Below, in pieces: positions 8,205-60,914 of a stretch of 64,000 nucleotides of DNA. The stretch lies in the NCBI RefSeq assembly GCF_009730915.1, contig NC_052475.1:25171016-25235015 (forward strand), read 5' to 3'. A model generated the notes under the pieces. That model was given only the letters and a program-made list of their open reading frames with translations. It was not told where the DNA came from and did no database searches. This DNA is from Dioscorea cayenensis subsp. rotundata. Its lineage: Eukaryota; Streptophyta; Magnoliopsida; Dioscoreales; Dioscoreaceae. How positions within the stretch are numbered: the stretch's first letter is position 1; every line of letters begins with the position of its first letter. Both the position numbers and the translations under genes were made by a program.

Positions 8205-8941
8205 ACTTCCAATACATTGCCAATTCTAGCAACAAAATGATTGTTTGGACCATGTAGATTCTGTAGATATTGTGATGATGCTCATGTGCTTTCTTCTGTA
8301 AGCCTTGTTCAACCATCTGTTTTCTTAAGTAGTTGTTCTTCTTCTCTTTCTAATAAAACTGAATGAGGTTTGAATCTATTCCAGTTTTGAGTATTTCAAA
8401 TGTTAATCCATTTTTGTTCCATCTCTGAACAATAAGTGCCAAGAAAATGCTGTCCATGGAGCTTGGCATTGTGATTAAATATTGGTAGGCCACTTTGCTT
8501 TTGCTTCATAACCTCCACTTTCCCATAAAGATCACATTCAAACACTTGTTTGTTTTCCTCTGGTCCTTTAGGAAAAACAATATTTAAAATTTGTTAGTGG
8601 AGCTCTTTATACTCCACTAATGCCCTCCCTAATTTGAAGCACTGTACTCTATGTCCCATTCCTTATTTATCAGAAAAATGTAGCTAGTTTGTAGTTCTTA
8701 ATTATTGCTATTTTTGATACTATGTTACAGTACTAAGCATAGGTGGCTATCTTTATCATCGATGATCATACTCCGATAAATAATATTGAGTCATAATCTT
8801 TTTTCTATTTAATACACCAAGCACTTCACAATCACAATATTGGATAGTGCCCACTTCTCTTTTTCTTCACTTTGAATTGAAAAACATAAATATATATATA
8901 TATATAGACATTGCCATCCCATTCTCTGACACAGTGAGGAA
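8205..8941. other. Intergenic DNA between the DnaJ and CIF-like genes
   Basis: Includes the DnaJ 3' UTR (an AATAAA-like signal, taataaaac, at about 8351) and the promoter of the small gene that follows. An AT dinucleotide run at 8889-8906, about 36-53 bases before the ATG at 8942, could serve as a TATA element. Nothing else is recognisable. Confidence 0.5.
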
Positions 8942-9414
8942 ATGGTGTCTTTAAGATCATCAACTCTTCTCTTCTTCCTCATCTCAGGATCACTGCTCTG
9001 CTCTTCATTTGCAAGTGAATTCATTTGAATTACTGGGAATGTCAAAATGCCTTCATCATCAATCTCTATTTTCAGATTGTTTTTTTCTGCAGATGATGAT
9101 AGGAAATTGCTGCTAGAAAGATACAGGATTGAAAATGAAGCTGCTGTAAGTGATGTGAGTACTGAAACATATTATAATTCATGTTGTTGTTTCATGGATC
9201 ATGAGATGTTTTATTTATATATATAACACACAACCATCTTGTTTGTTATAATTTATAAACATGGCAGAAATTATCAGGGAATTTATCAGATGACGATGAA
9301 GGGCTCATCATTTTCGGTCATTCAAGGGATCTTGTTGTTAAAACAAATGACTATGGAAATTGTAAACCTACTCCAGCTCTTTCCAAGCCTTCTTTCAAAC
9401 AAATATCAAACTGA
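8942..9414 (+). CDS. Secreted peptide precursor, CASPARIAN STRIP INTEGRITY FACTOR (CIF)-like
   Basis: Three small exons: 8942-9014, 9093-9145 (or to 9154, a second in-frame donor) and 9268-9414, giving 90 or 93 residues. Residues 1-24 form a clear signal peptide (basic SLR, then TLLFFLISGSLLCSSFA). The middle is charged and ends in an acidic stretch (SDDDEG). The last 21 residues are DYGNCKPTPALSKPSFKQIS plus N. As I know it, Arabidopsis CIF1 ends DYGNNSPSPRLERPPFKLIP plus N: same length, same DY start, matching Pro positions, FK and terminal Asn. DY is the tyrosine-sulfation signature of this family, whose peptides bind the receptor kinases SGN3/GSO1 and GSO2 to control Casparian strip or embryonic cuticle sealing. 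The Cys in the mature peptide and the SFKQIS variant of PFKLIP are unusual. The gene structure and peptide are seen in the sequence; the function is inferred. Confidence 0.68.
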
Positions 9415-9472: not shown

Positions 9473-11033
9473 CTGTTGAAGTGTGGATGTACTAGAAGTA
9501 GAAGACATGAATAAATGAATGTTTATGCTTAATTAAGAATGTATTAAGGACAGAAATGGTCAATTTGAAGGCAACATGAAAGTTGGAAATCAATGATTCT
9601 AGTTCTTTGATAAAATAAATAAAAATAAAAATCCATTATTTTAGTTCTAGTCAAGCCCTTTTAAACCTTACTTGGCCTGGCCCAGAAACAGAGTAGCCTA
9701 TTGGGCGTGTTTCTTTAAAAACAATTTTAGAATATTATTTTTGTTTTGATAATTTATTAGTTTTTCTTATTCATTACATGTTAAAACTCATGAATTTTGT
9801 TTATTAATCTTCATCATTTTTTTACAATGTATATATATATATATATATTAAATTCATCAACTATGTATTGCATAAAAATAGGAAATAGAAATAGAAAATG
9901 GTGAGCTTTGAATATTTAATAAAAATATTTGTTTTACTGATTCAAGCATATCTTGAAATAAATTGTGTAGCCAACAACATTTGGTTGGTTTGGTGATAAA
10001 CTTGGCAGTGCATATGCAGAAATAGATTCAAAATTATGCATCCATAGTACTTTTTACAGTACAATTCATCCACTATATAGAGGTCAAAATAAATTTTAAA
10101 AAAATTGATAAGGTACCATAAATAATACATTTTTATATCTGTCTATTTGTTGACACTCTTATATACAAACGCTTGAGATCTATTGTCAAAAAAATAAAAA
10201 TAAAAATAAAAAAATAAACCGTGTGAAATTTTGAATAGCATTACCAAGCTAATATTTATAAGGTGATTCGCAATTTGTGAATAAAGTAAAATTACATGAA
10301 TTTAAACTCGTAACCCACAAAGACTTGTGTGCGTGTGTGTGTGTGTAAACTGGCTAATCAGTTTATAAATAATTAAAAAAAAAAAAACACTTATGCTTAC
10401 AAGAAATTGGCTTTGTCACACATCATATATTTATAACCTAATTCTTTGAAATGATTGATTCCCTTAATACAACAAGTGGGAATTGAATATTCAGAGTGAT
10501 GACTAAAAATGAAATGATAGTCTATTAGCAAATAATTGGATAATATTAAACAATGATTCATAGCACGAGATCATTGCCTTGCCTAATTATCAATTCTTGC
10601 TTGAGGCTTTGGTTAACCCAATCCATGCAGACACTTGACAGATATCCTTTCTCACATCAGATAGTGATATTTACTACTTTTAATTTCATAGATTTCATTA
10701 TCTAAATCACAGCTAATAACTGGTTGCTCAATATTCATTAGATAGTGTTTGGATGTAGCTTTCATTTAAACTCTTTTAAAATAAAGATTTGAATAGACTG
10801 AGTTCTTTCTTTACCTACAGTGCTTTGGGATAATTTAATTTGATATTTGATTAGTTGAATGGAAAAATGTTTTTTTAATTTTATTAACTCAAAAAAAGTA
10901 TCTTTTTAATTTTTAAACATGAATTAAATATTAAGAAGGATTAGTTATATGAGGTTTTTTAAAGTGAGCACATTCTCAATATATAAAATATTTATTCATT
11001 AATTTAAGAGCATCTGATTTAATTTGATTTTTG

Positions 11034-17159: not shown

Positions 17160-19073
17160 CTACAATTCTGAGCTTGAACTTATACGAGAGAACGGTGCAG
17201 CAACATGAAGCAGGAAATAGAGTATCAAAGCAAAAACTCCTGCCAAAAACAAGAAGTTCAAACCTTTGATGTAGCTTTTCTTTTTAGGATGAATGCTTGC
17301 TGGTCTTTCAGGATCATCGCTACCATTTTTGAATTCAAGAAGGTGATCTTCATTGACACACTCAACAGTCCCATTGATTGTTTTTCCATTTCTTGATTCC
17401 ATCTTGTGCGTCTGAAGCCTGATCCTTTCTTTTGTTACAGTAGTAGAAAATCCAGGACGACGGGATCTTATCTGAATGCCTGTTTCCTCATTTCCAGTGT
17501 TCTTTGTATTGTCAGCATTTTCACAAATAAAATCACTTCCATGCCTGCCAACTACATTGAATGAAGTCAATGAGTTGTAATGTATTGGGTTCCCCCTGTG
17601 TTCTGCAGCTTCAGATGGAGTTAAGATGTCATCAAGCGCTACACCAGCGCCATATTCTCCAAAAAAGAAATCAATATCTAACTCAGGGATATCTTCTTCT
17701 AGGAAACATTCTGTTTTATCTATTTCTAGTGGGAAATGGACAGAGTCTTCTGAGATATTTGGTGGAGAACATGGATTATCGGCTTCCCTCTTTGGAGCAA
17801 TAAGGTTGTCATTTTCCTGCAAATTGTCCACAGAAACAAATATACAGTGTTAGTTGACATCCATTTGATTTTAAGATTTAACTCACCACTCTGATGGAAA
17901 AAGATCTAGTGACACACATGCAGGTAAATGTTAATAATGTAATTATTCAAGAAGTTTCAAGATCTTGTGTTGATTGCAGGGACTTGGGAGTAGTCCTGAA
18001 GTGTTTGCTGGAGTTTAGTGCATACCTTTAATTCAGTAATAGCATGAATAGTGCAAAAGTTTGGTTTCGTAAAGTTCTTTAATCCATGCTTCAACATCAT
18101 CAACATCACCTTGGACTACTAGATCAGTCACGCCTTTTGGTTGATCTGCACAATCACCAATTTTGGAGGACATCTCAGCTTCTTGCACCAAGCCATCCCT
18201 CTTTGTAACACGGCAGAGGACAAAGGAATTCTACAATTATAGATAAACATTTCAATAAACAAGAGGCTAGAAGAAGCATATCTTAAAACAGTCCCTTTAT
18301 GTTTAAGAAGTACTTTATAATTCTTTGAGATGCAATACAGATAGAATATTTGCAAAAAAAAGAATGAATTATCAATAAATCAAGTAGTAAAACATGGCTA
18401 TAAAGGATTACCTTCATACCAGGGGCAGCTTTGTATTCCTTTTCATCCAGATAATATTCATGCATGATCCAATCTGTTCTCTTTCCTAAAGGAGGCCGGC
18501 CTTTGTGAAAAACTAGAGTTTTCTTAGTTCCCACCACACGATGTTTGGACTTGATCCTCCTGTCCTTACCAGTGGACTTCCAGTAACCTGCTTCCGTTGC
18601 CCTGTTTGATCGAAAACCATTGGGATACTTTCTGTCTCGTGTGGTGAAGAAGTGCCATTTGCTATCACGGGTAGGTACGTGACATTTCGCTACAAAAAGT
18701 CATAAACCAAGAACAATTAGAACAAGGTAGGTAGGCCATTCACACGCTATGAAACATATATCCTTTTCACAGCTTTCAACTGCAGCTTGATGCTAAGCAT
18801 ACTCAATGGAAAGCAATCAACTAATTTGATTAACAAAGTTACAGGTTACACATTCATCAGTGAAATCATGTTATTCCAGATGGTATCTCACAAGAGATGA
18901 AAATTACCTGGCAGGTCCCATGGTTCAAATTTGTATATATCCACCTCTGGTATTATTTCATGGTCGATCTTTTGGCCAAGGGATTTTTTCTTCAAATAAT
19001 GTGAAACAAGTTCCTCATCAGTTGGATAGAATCCAAATCCTCGGGGGAGGGAGAAGACATTCATAATCTCCAT
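17160..19073 (-). CDS. Membrane-tethered NAC transcription factor (NTL type), with an apparent one-base frame break
   Basis: Four exons on the minus strand: 18908-19073, 18412-18689, 18026-18230 and 17160-17816. Exons 1-2 encode the NAC domain (about residues 9-160): [18 protein letters not shown], then the DNA-binding stretch with [10 protein letters not shown] and WIMHEYYL. Exon 4 encodes an acidic activation region and ends in one membrane span ([16 protein letters not shown]), typical of NTL factors that are held in a membrane and freed by proteolysis. Exon 3 reads well from NSFVLCRV to DDVEAWIK, then hits a stop before the donor. One extra T in the + strand triplet 18078-18080 explains this: without it the exon ends ...HAITELK in the phase exon 4 needs, giving 434 residues. 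As written the product stops at 213 residues and lacks the anchor. A sequence error is the simplest reading. Confidence 0.85.
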
Positions 19074-32203: not shown

Positions 32204-34855
<2,652 letters not shown>

Positions 34856-35657: not shown

Positions 35658-42220
<6,563 letters not shown>

Positions 42221-45638: not shown

Positions 45639-48143
45639 TATTTATTTATTTATTTTGAGTAAAGTGGATAAATCATAAATTTATTGAATATAAAAGAAAA
45701 TTACTGGGTAAACTTAGAAAAAAAGAAACAACCACACAAAGAAAACATATAGACTGAAATCCTATCCAGTGGTAAGGGAAACAGAGTACAAAATTAGAAA
45801 AAAGGAGCGACAGATGTAGAAGAAGAGAGAATAAGCTGGACCGGCAAAGGCTACAGTCTGGAGACATAGGCCTGTCCGAACTGCAGGAAGAAGAGGACTA
45901 CTCCCGATCTGTGGTGTGCCTTGAATCGCCAATAAGATTTGTAGGTCTTGTGCTCATGAAGCTGAGAGAGCGCTTGATGCTCTGAGAGGCTTCCAGGGTT
46001 GCCTGATGATGAGACTTTGAAGCTACGGAAAACCAAGAGAGAAGCATATTAGCAGTCTTATAAAATATTGAAAGAATAGGCGAGCGGTTTAGATTAAAAA
46101 TGCGATTGTTCTGTTCCAGCCAAATATTCTAGATAATTGCTTTGGAGCAGAGATCCCACAGGTTCCAATGAGAAGAATTTAGTAAGGGAAGCCATGTGGT
46201 CCAGATATTGGAAACTAAGGATGGAGGAGATTCTATACACAATTGATAAAAAGATGTTCACCGTTTCAGAACTATTATGATAGAGAATGCATGTGTCTGT
46301 AACGTTTGGATTGCTACCTTTTTTGAATACTCTCAAGAGTAAGAATTTTGTTTCCTTGACAAGCCAACAGAATAAAGTGATTTTGTTTGGAGATTGAGTT
46401 TTCCAAAACTGAGAGCAAAGCTGGCTGCAAAGCCCTCCATCTATTAAGAAATTGTAGAAGGACTTAACAGTGAAGGTTCCATTTTTTTCTAGTGACCAAG
46501 TATAAAAATCTTCCTGATCATCAGAGCAATCCGGGATTGTATTCAAGATTGTGGTAAGATCGTCTACTGAAGCTGTTTGGAAAAAGTTCTCTTGAAAGTT
46601 GAGTAAAAGAGTGAATTGTCTTAAAGTTATCGAGGGAGAAGTACAATCCATGAAGAGGGATGGCTAGAGATCTTTGGGGGATTGTCCTTCATACCATCTA
46701 TTAAACCAAAAGGATGTGTTAGCGCCATTTCCAATTGATTTGATGATGCATGTTCGAAATGAAGGTAGGATGGTGTTAATGTTGGTAATAATCGATCTAA
46801 TCAAATTAGAGTCAAGAAAAATCGTTCCAATGACTATCAATTACAATTAATTGATATTTAATCAACAATTGATTAATTATCAAGGATCGATCACATGAAC
46901 ACATGAATATATGTGAAATATCAGGATTACCTCACAGAGATTTCATAAGCGCAAAATCCTCTCGAACTTTTCACCCTTGATCCGGAAGAAGTGATGGCTT
47001 TTGATGGCAATCACAAACTAATTAATTGAGAAACCCTAATCTTATATCACATATTTATAGGGAGTTAATATATTCGGATAAGGTTAGAACATGTAGCGTG
47101 GACCCGTTTGGGATCACTACATCTTTAGCAAATTAGTCCATACTAATTTTATAATCACAATCATGTCCATCAACAAATTGCAATTTAATCCAAAGATTAG
47201 ATATATTCATATGTGAGACCCTAATATAATATTTTACATATTAGTCCTTCTATCAATAAATATTCCATATAAGTGGGATAATTAGACCACCAATAGCACT
47301 GTCGATCTCCACTTATATGTGTGTTTCTTTACACTATTGGACATAAAACAATTTAAGAAAAATGTATAATAATATATATTTCATATATAATAAAATACTT
47401 TCAAAAAATTAACCAGCCGGATTTATCCAACGCATAAGAAACACAATCTAGAATATTCTCTCCTACAATAGGAGTGATAGATCTCATCTTGGATGACTAC
47501 AAACCTTTCATGTATTTATTATATAACCCAATGTGTCCGTATATAGCCTGTAATTAGCATCACGGGTTGACACTATCAAAGTAATATAATTTATACATAA
47601 GATTTAATAAATCCTCAGGTAATAAGGACTTTCTGCAACAGAATAACTCTTTTGTTCTATGACAGTGTTTGGTCTAAGAGTTTTGTATGGTCCAGTTTAA
47701 TATTTGTCAACTACAAATATCCACCACAATGTTACTAAAAGTCTCCACTCTAGTGGCTGAGACATACCACTCTATCACATATAGTAGTACAACATGTGAC
47801 AACCAATAATGAATAAAAAAAAAATCATATTTTATCTAATAGGTTGTGAACTATTTTGGGTTGCAAGGAACATAAATAATCATGTCTCACTTTAATGATC
47901 TCTGTCATTAATTTGAAATTTATACAATGCAAGCCCATAATAATATATCATCAAATATGAATAATACAATACCCATAATTATGCATGTAATAAAATAAAA
48001 TTATTTTATTATCAAATAATAACTAAAATTGGCTTTGTAGGGTATATTAGTTTTTCAGTTAATTCCTACCTAGAAAAAGAATTTTTTTTTTGGTGGGTGC
48101 TGGAATAAGATTGTGGCTTTCTAGTATAGTAGGTGGTTTTCTA
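45639..48143 (-). mobile_element. L1-type LINE remnant, interrupted by a second insertion
   Basis: On the minus strand the DNA encodes the end of a LINE polyprotein. It reads KSIGNGANTSFWFNRW (about 46690-46740), then TWSLEKNGTFTVKSFYNFL and FWKTQSPNKITLFCWL of the zinc-knuckle domain after the reverse transcriptase (zf-RVT), then NIWLEQNNRIFN. It is followed by about 400 bases of 3' end and a TAAA-repeat tail at 45639-45655. The reverse transcriptase and endonuclease parts are absent, so the copy is 5'-truncated, and several in-frame stops (for example just before NIWLEQ, and before the ORF start at 46651) show it is dead. A 16-base target duplication flanks 45639-48143. Positions 46789 to about 48050 belong to another element inserted into it. 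Confidence 0.7.
46789..48050. mobile_element. Possible solo LTR inserted in the LINE
   Basis: This non-coding, very AT-rich stretch splits the LINE remnant. It begins tgttggtaataatcg, and TGTTGG is a common start of plant Copia LTRs. Internally there is a TATA-like tatttataggg near 47050 and regulatory-looking texture, but no coding region. The size, about 1.2 kb, fits an LTR left after recombination. I could not define the right end or a target duplication, so the class is uncertain. Treat as a fossil. Confidence 0.35.
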
Positions 48144-58316: not shown

Positions 58317-60914
58317 TGATGACAAGAATACATGAAGATTGTTTCATGACCTACACTGCAACTTTATCTTCTTGTTTTTTTGTTTTGAATTAGTCTAAGT
58401 TAGTTATAACAGAACATAATTTTAGGCTGTATTTTGTATATTAAAGCCATGACAATCAATGGAAAAGGGTGTGAAAAATATCTTACTGCACATCTTCTCT
58501 TGTCTTCATCTTCTCCCACGTGGTATCAGAGACCATCTCATACGAGCTTAGGTTTTGATCCTTGTCTTGCCCATTTAAAAAATTCTCCTCGATCAACATT
58601 CATTTCATGGTAACTGGAAATACTCAGGTTGTCCTCCCAAATGCTCATGAGCCAGACAATCCTTTCACCTTGGTCACCATCCACAACTCCATTAAACTTA
58701 CCTCCACCAATTATCTCTCGTGGAAAACCCAGATTGACTCCATGTCTCTTTGTTGGATATTCTTCTACTCAAAGTGCTTATCTCTGTCTTGATATCTCCT
58801 CTAACCGTTTATACACTTCTCGTCATGTCCGTTTTTGTTGAATCTATTTTTCCTCTTGCCAGTTCTAATCTCACCCTCCCTCATGTCAGTTCCTCCACCA
58901 CATCAGACTGGTGTTCTATGACTTTACATGTCCTTTCTTCTGTGCCATCGTCCCTCCTACCACCATCTCAATCCCAAGGACAATCTTCCTTATCTCCACA
59001 CACATCCAGCTTTGAGCCAGAACACGTCATTCCTTTCTCATCCACCACTTCATCTTCCACTCATGCGGAACCTACCTCCATCACCACCAGTCTGCTGCAT
59101 TCATCTCCTCAAGGCATCATTACTCGGTCCAAACACAACATTCACAAACCTATTCAGAAACTAAACCTCAATACTGAGCTTCACCGACCCACTCTTGAGC
59201 CCACCACTACCCATCAAGCCTTGAAAAACCCCAACTGGCGACAAGCCATGTCCGCTGAGTTTGATGCTCTTCTTCGTAATGGCACATGGGAACTTGTTCC
59301 ATCTCATCCTACTCAAAACTTGGTAGGATGTAAGTGGATTTTTCGCACTAAATATTTACCTGATGGTTCTGTTGACAGGTACAAAGCCCGTTTGGTTGCA
59401 AAAGGTTTTCATCAACGCCCTGGACTTGATTTTTCTGAAACTTTTAGTCTTGTCATTGAACCAACCTCTGTGCGTCTGGTTCTTAGCATTGCAATAAGTA
59501 ATGGCTGGTCACTTAGCCAACTAGATGTCAACAATGCCTTTCTTCATGGCAAACTTTCAGAGGATGTATTTATGTCTCAACCTCCTGGTTTTCTTGATCG
59601 TGATAATCCTCACCATGTATGCAAGCTTCGCAAAACCATCTATGGATTCAAGCAAGCTCCATGCGCTTGGTATCATGAATTACGCCAATTTTTGCTTACT
59701 TCAGGCTTTCATAACTCTGTCACAGATGCCTCTTTGTTCATCTTCAATACTCAAGGAGTTATTCTTTATCTTCTTGCTTACGTTGATGATATAATTGTTA
59801 TTGGAAACACAGATCAGGCTGTACATCATTTTCTTTCCCAACTCTCTTCGCGCTTCTCTCTAAAGGATCTTGGTGACTTGCACTACTTCTTGGGTGTTGA
59901 AGTGCTTTCCCATGCCGACGGGCTGTTTCTTAGTCAACGAAAGTATATTGCTGATCTCCTTCACAAGACTCATATGACAGAAGCCAAACCAGCCTCCACA
60001 CCTATGGCAATGGATCCACCTCTTACCTTGCATGTCGGCACTCTCTTATTTGATCCTACCGAGTATCGCTCCACAGTTGGCCCCCTTCATTACTCTCCTT
60101 GACTCGTCCAAATATTACTTACACGGTCAATAAACTCTCTCAGTTCATGCATCAACCAACGATTGTGCATTGGACTGCTGTCAAACGTTTACTTCGCTAT
60201 CTCTGTGGTACCTTAGATCATGGCATAACACTTTATCGTAAGTCCTCTCTTACTCTTCATGCATTCTCTGACGCTGACTGGGCCCGCAACAAGGATGATT
60301 TTACTTCAACCAGTGCTTACATTGTTTATCTTGGCCATAATCCTATCTCTTGGAGCTCCAAAAAACAGAGAACTGTTGCCCGTTCTTCCACCGAAGCTGA
60401 ATATAGATCAGTCGCTACCACGGCCGCAGAACTGCGTTGGATTTGTTCTCTCCTATCTGAACTTGGCCTCACTATTCCTCATCAACCGTGTGATTTATTG
60501 TGACAATGTTCGAGCCACAAACCTCTGTGTCAATCCTGTGTTTCACTCACGTATGAAGCATGTTGGCTTGGACTATTACTTTATTCGTGAACAAGTTCAA
60601 AGTGGTGTTCTTCGAGTCTCCCATGTCTCCGCTTCTGATCAGCTTGCCGATGTCCTCACCAAGCCCATGTCTCGTCAACAATTCACAATGGTTATGAACA
60701 AGATTGGACTCACTCCACCACTGTCCATCTTGCGAGGGCATGATGACAAAAATACATGAAGATTGTTTTATGACCTACACTGCAACTTTATCTTCTTGTT
60801 TTTCTATTTTGAATTAGTCTAAATTAGTTATAACTTTTAAGCTGTATTTTGTATATTAAAACCATGGCAATCAATGGAAAAGGGTGTGAAAAATATCTTA
60901 CAGCACTTCTCCCA
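58317..60914 (+). mobile_element. Ty1/Copia LTR retrotransposon, broken
   Basis: Both LTRs are present: about 58317-58517 and 60741-60914. They begin tgatgacaa and end tctccca, and are about 95 per cent alike outside one short gap. A primer-binding site of the initiator-methionine tRNA type (tggtatcagag) follows the left LTR. The flanks carry ACTAGT on both sides, a probable target duplication. Recognisable parts are a gag N-terminus (with LTSTNYLSWKTQ) and a large block of Copia reverse transcriptase (DVNNAFLHG, YVDDII) and RNase H (SSTEAEY). Protease and integrase are not recognisable. The element is broken, with roughly half a dozen breaks or missing parts, and cannot move by itself. LTR divergence suggests an insertion a few million years old or less, using usual plant rates. 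Read as a fossil. Confidence 0.85.

Follow-up and report, generated by a model that had tools for sequence, protein, structure and literature searches.

A predicted CIF-type sulfated-peptide gene with a diverged tail and its duplicate in the white Guinea yam genome

Structure of the gene and identity of its peptide

The window analysed here is a stretch of 64,000 nucleotides on contig C5 of Dioscorea cayenensis subsp. rotundata. To judge by its sequence, positions 8942-9414 of the forward strand are a nuclear gene for a secreted precursor of a sulfated root-barrier peptide of the CIF type (CASPARIAN STRIP INTEGRITY FACTOR). The spliced exons, 8942-9014, 9093-9145 (or 9154) and 9268-9414, form an uninterrupted frame of 90 (or 93) codons; both introns are bounded by GT and AG, and retention of either brings a stop codon into the reading frame. 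Exon 1 (73 bases, ending in phase 1) contains the start codon and the presumed signal peptide MVSLRSSTLLFFLISGSLLCSSFA, and its end falls just past the latter. Intron 1 occupies 78 bases (9015-9092). Exon 2, which ends in phase 0, is favoured at 62 bases (9093-9154), with 53 bases as the alternative when the donor after 9145 is used, and intron 2 of the favoured form spans 113 bases (9155-9267). Exon 3 (147 bases, 9268-9414) holds the remaining pro-region, the motif LVVKTN (9331-9348), which adjoins the peptide on its 5' side and presumably serves as the N-terminal flank of a predicted cleavage site, the presumed mature peptide DYGNCKPTPALSKPSFKQISN of 21 codons (9349-9411) and the stop codon (9412-9414). 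A sequence-only reading of this DNA had proposed a CIF-like gene in three small exons, and its coordinates, splice sites and frame are all borne out by the present analysis, with the identification strengthened by a twin gene on contig C17.

The two donors of exon 2, GTAAGT at 9146 and GTGAGT at 9155, are both in frame and lie 9 bases apart, so that the window copy may yield two precursor forms that differ by three residues; the C17 twin has the second donor only. Signals in the flanking DNA are weak on both sides: a TATA-like run at 8891-8906 of the forward strand, 36-51 bases 5' of the ATG, is part of an (AT)n tract, and a possible polyadenylation signal AATAAA at 9510-9515 of the same strand lies in AT-rich DNA. 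The region of intron 1 gave no signal of RNA folding (z = -0.71), and the local repeats near the gene are AT-rich microsatellite tracts only.

The predicted product has the layout of a small secreted precursor, with 93 (or 90) residues and an N-terminus, LLFFLISGSLLC, that is strongly hydrophobic as judged by hydropathy only, in agreement with the signal peptide claimed earlier. The acidic middle described in the same reading is present but mild: in the 90-residue form, residues 26-69 include 10 D/E and 7 K/R. The expected C-terminus of 21 residues is there as well: it begins with DYG, where Asp-Tyr is a candidate sulfation site, contains prolines 7, 9 and 14, for which hydroxylation is predicted, and has as its final residue an Asn to which the stop codon is joined at once.

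Gapless comparison of these 21 residues with published CIF peptides gives 15/21 identities with SlCIF1, 13/21 with GmXAP3, 12/21 with AtCIF1, 11/21 with AtCIF2 and 8/21 with AtCIF3, which upholds the earlier claim of an alignment to Arabidopsis CIF1 and CIF2 without gaps; CIF4 and TWS1, as 23-residue peptides, were excluded from scoring. The reference sequences are those given in PMC11534595 (AtCIF1-4 and TWS1), PMC9369194 (GmXAP3) and PMC9028419 (SlCIF1). Among 38,383 stop-free stretches of 21 residues in the six frames of the window, the peptide is the top scorer for each of the five published peptides scored (BLOSUM62 score against SlCIF1 of 76, against 27 for the next best stretch), and in 200,000 shuffles of the peptide its score was never equalled or exceeded with any of these references. 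Among all Protein Data Bank sequences, chain C of 6s6q, Arabidopsis CIF2, matches best, over 21/21 residues and without a gap, at a weak E-value of 0.68, and no Pfam family matches the precursor. Among viral contigs, 39 stretches fit the pattern of relatives and none was confirmed.

Absence of a C-terminal extension is a criterion of the CIF1/CIF2 subgroup (PMC13082318), and the window peptide has no such extension, the stop following right after the last Asn. Its tail, by contrast, reads PSFKQISN where the subgroup has PPFKLIPN. The gene is therefore assigned to the CIF family, as the duplicate of a standard CIF1/2 gene, and not to CIF1/2 in the standard sense.

The twin gene and the origin of the pair

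Comparison of the gene's DNA with its own genome (584,211,761 bases, 2249 contigs) finds one other place, C17:159636-159704. This match belongs to a gene on the reverse strand with exons of 85, 62 and 147 bases (160367-160283, 159958-159897 and 159766-159620), the product of which, MMMPSERSTSTLLLLILISASLFSASFAGEHRKLLHRSAPTLFANAFKHEYSSRKFRDEEQQILLPRSRILVVKTNDYGNYEPTPALTKPPFKLIPN, ends in the standard peptide DYGNYEPTPALTKPPFKLIPN. The intron phases and the lengths of exon 2 and exon 3 (62 and 147 bases) are identical in the two copies, and no gap is needed to align the two precursors beyond exon 1. The copies share the LVVKTN flank and 15/21 residues of the peptide; they differ in the tail, which is PPFKLIPN in the C17 copy, in the length of exon 1 (85 against 73 bases) and in the longer introns of the C17 copy (324 and 130 bases). 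The exon 2 ends align as CAT/GTGAGTAG in C17 and GAT/GTGAGTAC in the window, the slash marking the boundary; where the shorter form would have its donor, C17 lacks a GT. With a 62-base exon and an aligned GTGAGT donor in C17, an exon 2 end at 9154 and a precursor of 93 residues are favoured in the window; of the two lengths previously offered for exon 2, 62 bases is thus the more likely and 53 the less.

Protein searches of the genome at E-values up to 10 indicate at least two CIF genes, the window and C17 copies, and this number is a lower bound, since such searches score the best candidates only. When the C17 protein served as the query, three further places were listed, at E-values of 0.6 to 4.6. 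The pattern PFKLIPN followed by a stop codon occurs once genome-wide, at the C17 copy, and its reversed control not at all.

DNA comparison of C5 (the window and 50 kb upstream of it) with C17:60,001-260,000 reveals an inverted collinear block. In window coordinates, the segment at -44 to -39 kb corresponds to C17 210-214 kb, that at -2.4 to -1.7 kb to C17 172 kb, and a RING-type gene at 14.2-16.1 kb to C17 154-152 kb. The CIF genes sit inside this block, at 9 kb and 160 kb, respectively; they fall below the cut-off of the block comparison and were placed from the gene-DNA search and the exon comparison. A further part is rearranged: a stretch at 22.3-23.3 kb, a peroxidase gene at 33.7-34.9 kb and a MYB-like gene at 44-45 kb correspond there to C17 73-74, 79-80 and 82-83 kb. 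A few matches break the order, for example that of -25 kb with 197 kb and those of repeats near -50, -34 and 46 kb. For six segments in the neighbourhood, the coding dS of the best matches ranges from 0.74 to 1.73, and that of the CIF pair is 1.20. The collinear neighbours and these dS values indicate that the two CIF genes are most likely duplicates from a large segmental or whole-genome duplication rather than a local event. Chromosomes of D. alata and D. rotundata stand in one-to-one correspondence (PMC9010478), and the published chromosome pairing fits C5 and C17, provided that contig numbers are chromosome numbers. For the older 'tau' duplication PMC9010478 gives a median Ks of 1.21, so that dS values alone do not separate tau from another duplication. 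Median synonymous distances from D. alata in that paper are 0.064 to D. rotundata, 0.163 to D. dumetorum and 0.389 to D. zingiberensis. A 25-base primer of sp1, a sex-linked marker of white Guinea yam (PMC5604175), matches the genome exactly at one site, C11:241883-241907, and its reversed control at none; the marker was mapped to pseudo-chromosome 11, to a region at 0.65-2.35 Mb of the assembly used in that study. This single match fits white Guinea yam or a close relative.

A conserved promoter was considered and rejected. A block of 64 bases (8843-8906) aligns with C17 at an E-value of 5e-7, but controls score nearly as high: the true pair reaches 42.8 bits, against a top of 41.9 bits among 192 comparisons with unrelated C17 pieces. 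When the AT tail is removed, the best match of the true pair, then in a different stretch, scores 31.9 bits, equal to the top of 96 controls.

Several other features were observed in the two segments. The peroxidase gene mentioned above occupies window positions 33517-34852 of the forward strand, about 25 kb 3' of the CIF gene. Peroxidases take part in the formation of Casparian-strip lignin; the linkage to the CIF gene is probably incidental. A NAC-domain exon at 17163-18699 of the reverse strand has nearby an open frame on the same strand with a hydrophobic end, and the two might together encode a membrane-tethered NAC factor. A gene for a replicative helicase subunit lies at 35920-38570 of the forward strand, where the exons encode MCM N-terminal, OB and P-loop domains. 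Retrotransposon-type frames are found at 58738-60099 of the forward strand (RVT_2, copia type) and at 46097-46663 of the reverse strand (zinc-binding domain of reverse transcriptase). Some 50-45 kb upstream of the window lies a stretch of about 5.3 kb that is 89% identical to C17:100578-105765; with an identity far above that of the neighbouring duplicated genes, it is probably a mobile element.

Constraint and change in the peptide

The last 27 codons of the two copies, which encode LVVKTN and the peptide, comprise 9 identical codons, 12 synonymous differences and 6 amino acid differences; LVVKTN itself is the same in both despite differences in 5 of 6 codons. Upstream of these codons the pair is far less constrained (dN 0.64, dS 0.93). 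Under neutral simulation, 25,444 runs had 18 changed codons, and none of them showed 6 or fewer amino acid changes (mean 14.7); this test mixes the window and C17 branches. For the window branch, with the C17 sequence standing in for the ancestor and 5000 runs per distance, 6 or fewer changes arose in 0/5000 runs at each of the neutral distances 0.45, 0.6 and 0.8, and in 1.0%, 12.7% and 73.1% of runs at distances 0.3, 0.2 and 0.1. If the frame is also required to stay open, the latter proportions fall to 0.1%, 2.4% and 27.6%. Half of the dS of the CIF pair amounts to about 0.6. The absence of such outcomes at distances of 0.45 and above excludes neutral decay ever since the duplication, whereas distances of 0.1-0.2 remain compatible with the data. 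The window copy thus appears to have been under constraint for most of its life, with a possible relaxation in recent time. The earlier suggestion of a divergent member or a degenerating copy is narrowed accordingly: decay from the duplication onwards is rejected by simulation, and a recent loss of function may have taken place.

Four residues set the window copy, but not the C17 copy, apart from both the tomato and the soybean peptide: Y5C, P15S, L18Q and P20S. The C17 copy has one such private change, at position 12, and at position 6 neither copy agrees with them. The resulting 4:1 ratio of private changes does not reach significance (p = 0.375). Since the five aligned peptides are variable at positions 4-6, the Cys at position 5 may mean little. 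The tail PPFKLIPN is present in all five CIF1/2-type peptides compared, the C17 copy included, and is changed at three places in the window. The PFKLIP motif had been called near-invariant, which holds for the CIF1/CIF2 subgroup and fails family-wide: CIF3, CIF4 and TWS1 end otherwise, yet are described as GSO receptor ligands in a review (PMC11534595). The change in the window peptide is hence a loss of the subgroup signature and not of a family-wide one.

The positions associated with modification have been kept. Mass spectrometry identified sulfated Tyr2 and hydroxyproline at positions 7, 9 and 14 in a soybean homologue (PMC9369194), and sulfated Tyr2 and hydroxyproline at position 9 in tomato (PMC9028419); Tyr2 and prolines 7, 9 and 14 are all retained in the window peptide. 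It also retains Lys17 and Asn21, for which PMC11855783 gives AlphaFold 3-predicted contacts to GSO1 proteins in patchouli.

Proposed function and relation to known CIF peptides

CIF peptides report the completeness of the root's inner seal, which affects the entry of minerals. Binding to GSO1/SGN3 or GSO2 is characteristic of the family, as is expression in a cell layer that faces a barrier, such as root stele, tapetum or embryo. We consider it fairly probable (about 0.65), from the comparisons above, that the window copy is a working but altered CIF-family peptide gene, one of two copies of an old duplication. The pathway proposed for it follows PMC10827307, PMC11534595 and PMC13082318. As the kept positions suggest, the signal peptide would direct the precursor into the secretory pathway, a tyrosylprotein sulfotransferase would sulfate Tyr2 in the DY motif, hydroxylation would take place at one or more of prolines 7, 9 and 14, and a subtilase would cleave between LVVKTN and DYGN. 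Because the stop codon adjoins the last Asn, C-terminal trimming would be unneeded, as is described for CIF1 and CIF2 (PMC13082318). The freed peptide would probably still engage a GSO1/SGN3-type receptor at the endodermis, since D1, Y2, G3, P7, P9, P14, F16, K17, I19 and N21 are kept; in view of P15S, L18Q and P20S, its output might be weaker or altered.

An unlikely account, but one to be taken seriously, is that the function now rests with the C17 copy, the window copy having recently become functionless with its frame still open. The altered tail residues are the very ones kept in every CIF1/2-type peptide compared, a standard copy persists on C17, and the simulations leave room for relaxation over short distances. 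They exclude decay across most of the time since duplication, however, and neither the frame nor a splice site nor the stop is damaged, with LVVKTN, DYGN and the three prolines unaltered. Retention of the modification sites under a changed tail, and the excess of window-only changes, would also suit a ligand with a new role, in which the tail or Cys5 might shift the preference to another receptor, make the ligand weak or blocking, or give a disulfide-linked form; we regard this as improbable, with the 4:1 split short of significance and the Cys at a variable position. Very doubtful, too, is the proposal that the window copy acts as a natural dampener of Casparian-strip signalling, sulfated, processed and bound to GSO but poorly recruiting the co-receptor through its tail. 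The idea of impaired recruitment derives from a review, according to which the need for a SERK co-receptor was reportedly demonstrated with a CIF antagonist (PMC11534595); if the proposal were true, the duplicate pair would consist of an agonist and a competing weak or blocking ligand. A chance resemblance with no gene behind it, which the short exons, the missing Pfam match and the modest PDB E-value might evoke, is scarcely credible and is rejected: it is contradicted by the shuffle test and by a C17 twin of like structure among collinear neighbours.

The window gene, preferably read as a working but altered peptide gene, is a CIF family member with a diverged tail. Searches of a collection of open-licence papers found nothing that links Dioscorea, the Casparian strip and CIF, and none of three window-peptide fragments occurs in it. 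Surveys of the CIF family cover 33 and 66 plant species (PMC11855783 and PMC13074997, respectively), and the word 'Dioscorea' is absent from their main text as searched, figures apart. With one standard ligand and one copy that has a changed tail and keeps its modification sites, the pair constitutes a natural mutagenesis experiment on the role of the tail. White Guinea yam is a staple crop, and the gene pair may bear on its nutrient uptake.

Among known systems, the window gene stands closest to CIF1 (AT2G16385), CIF2 (AT4G34600), SlCIF1 and GmXAP3, with which it has in common a small secreted precursor and an extension-free C-terminal peptide of 21 residues. The CIF1/CIF2-type peptides and the window peptide share the DYG start, prolines 7, 9 and 14, Leu11, Phe16, Lys17, Ile19 and the final Asn; the window peptide departs from them by PSFKQISN in place of PPFKLIPN and by Cys at position 5. 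CIF3, CIF4 and TWS1 resemble it in the DY start, the prolines, the C-terminal Asn/His position and the absence of PFKLIP, and differ from it in their C-terminal extensions and in peptides that end in His.
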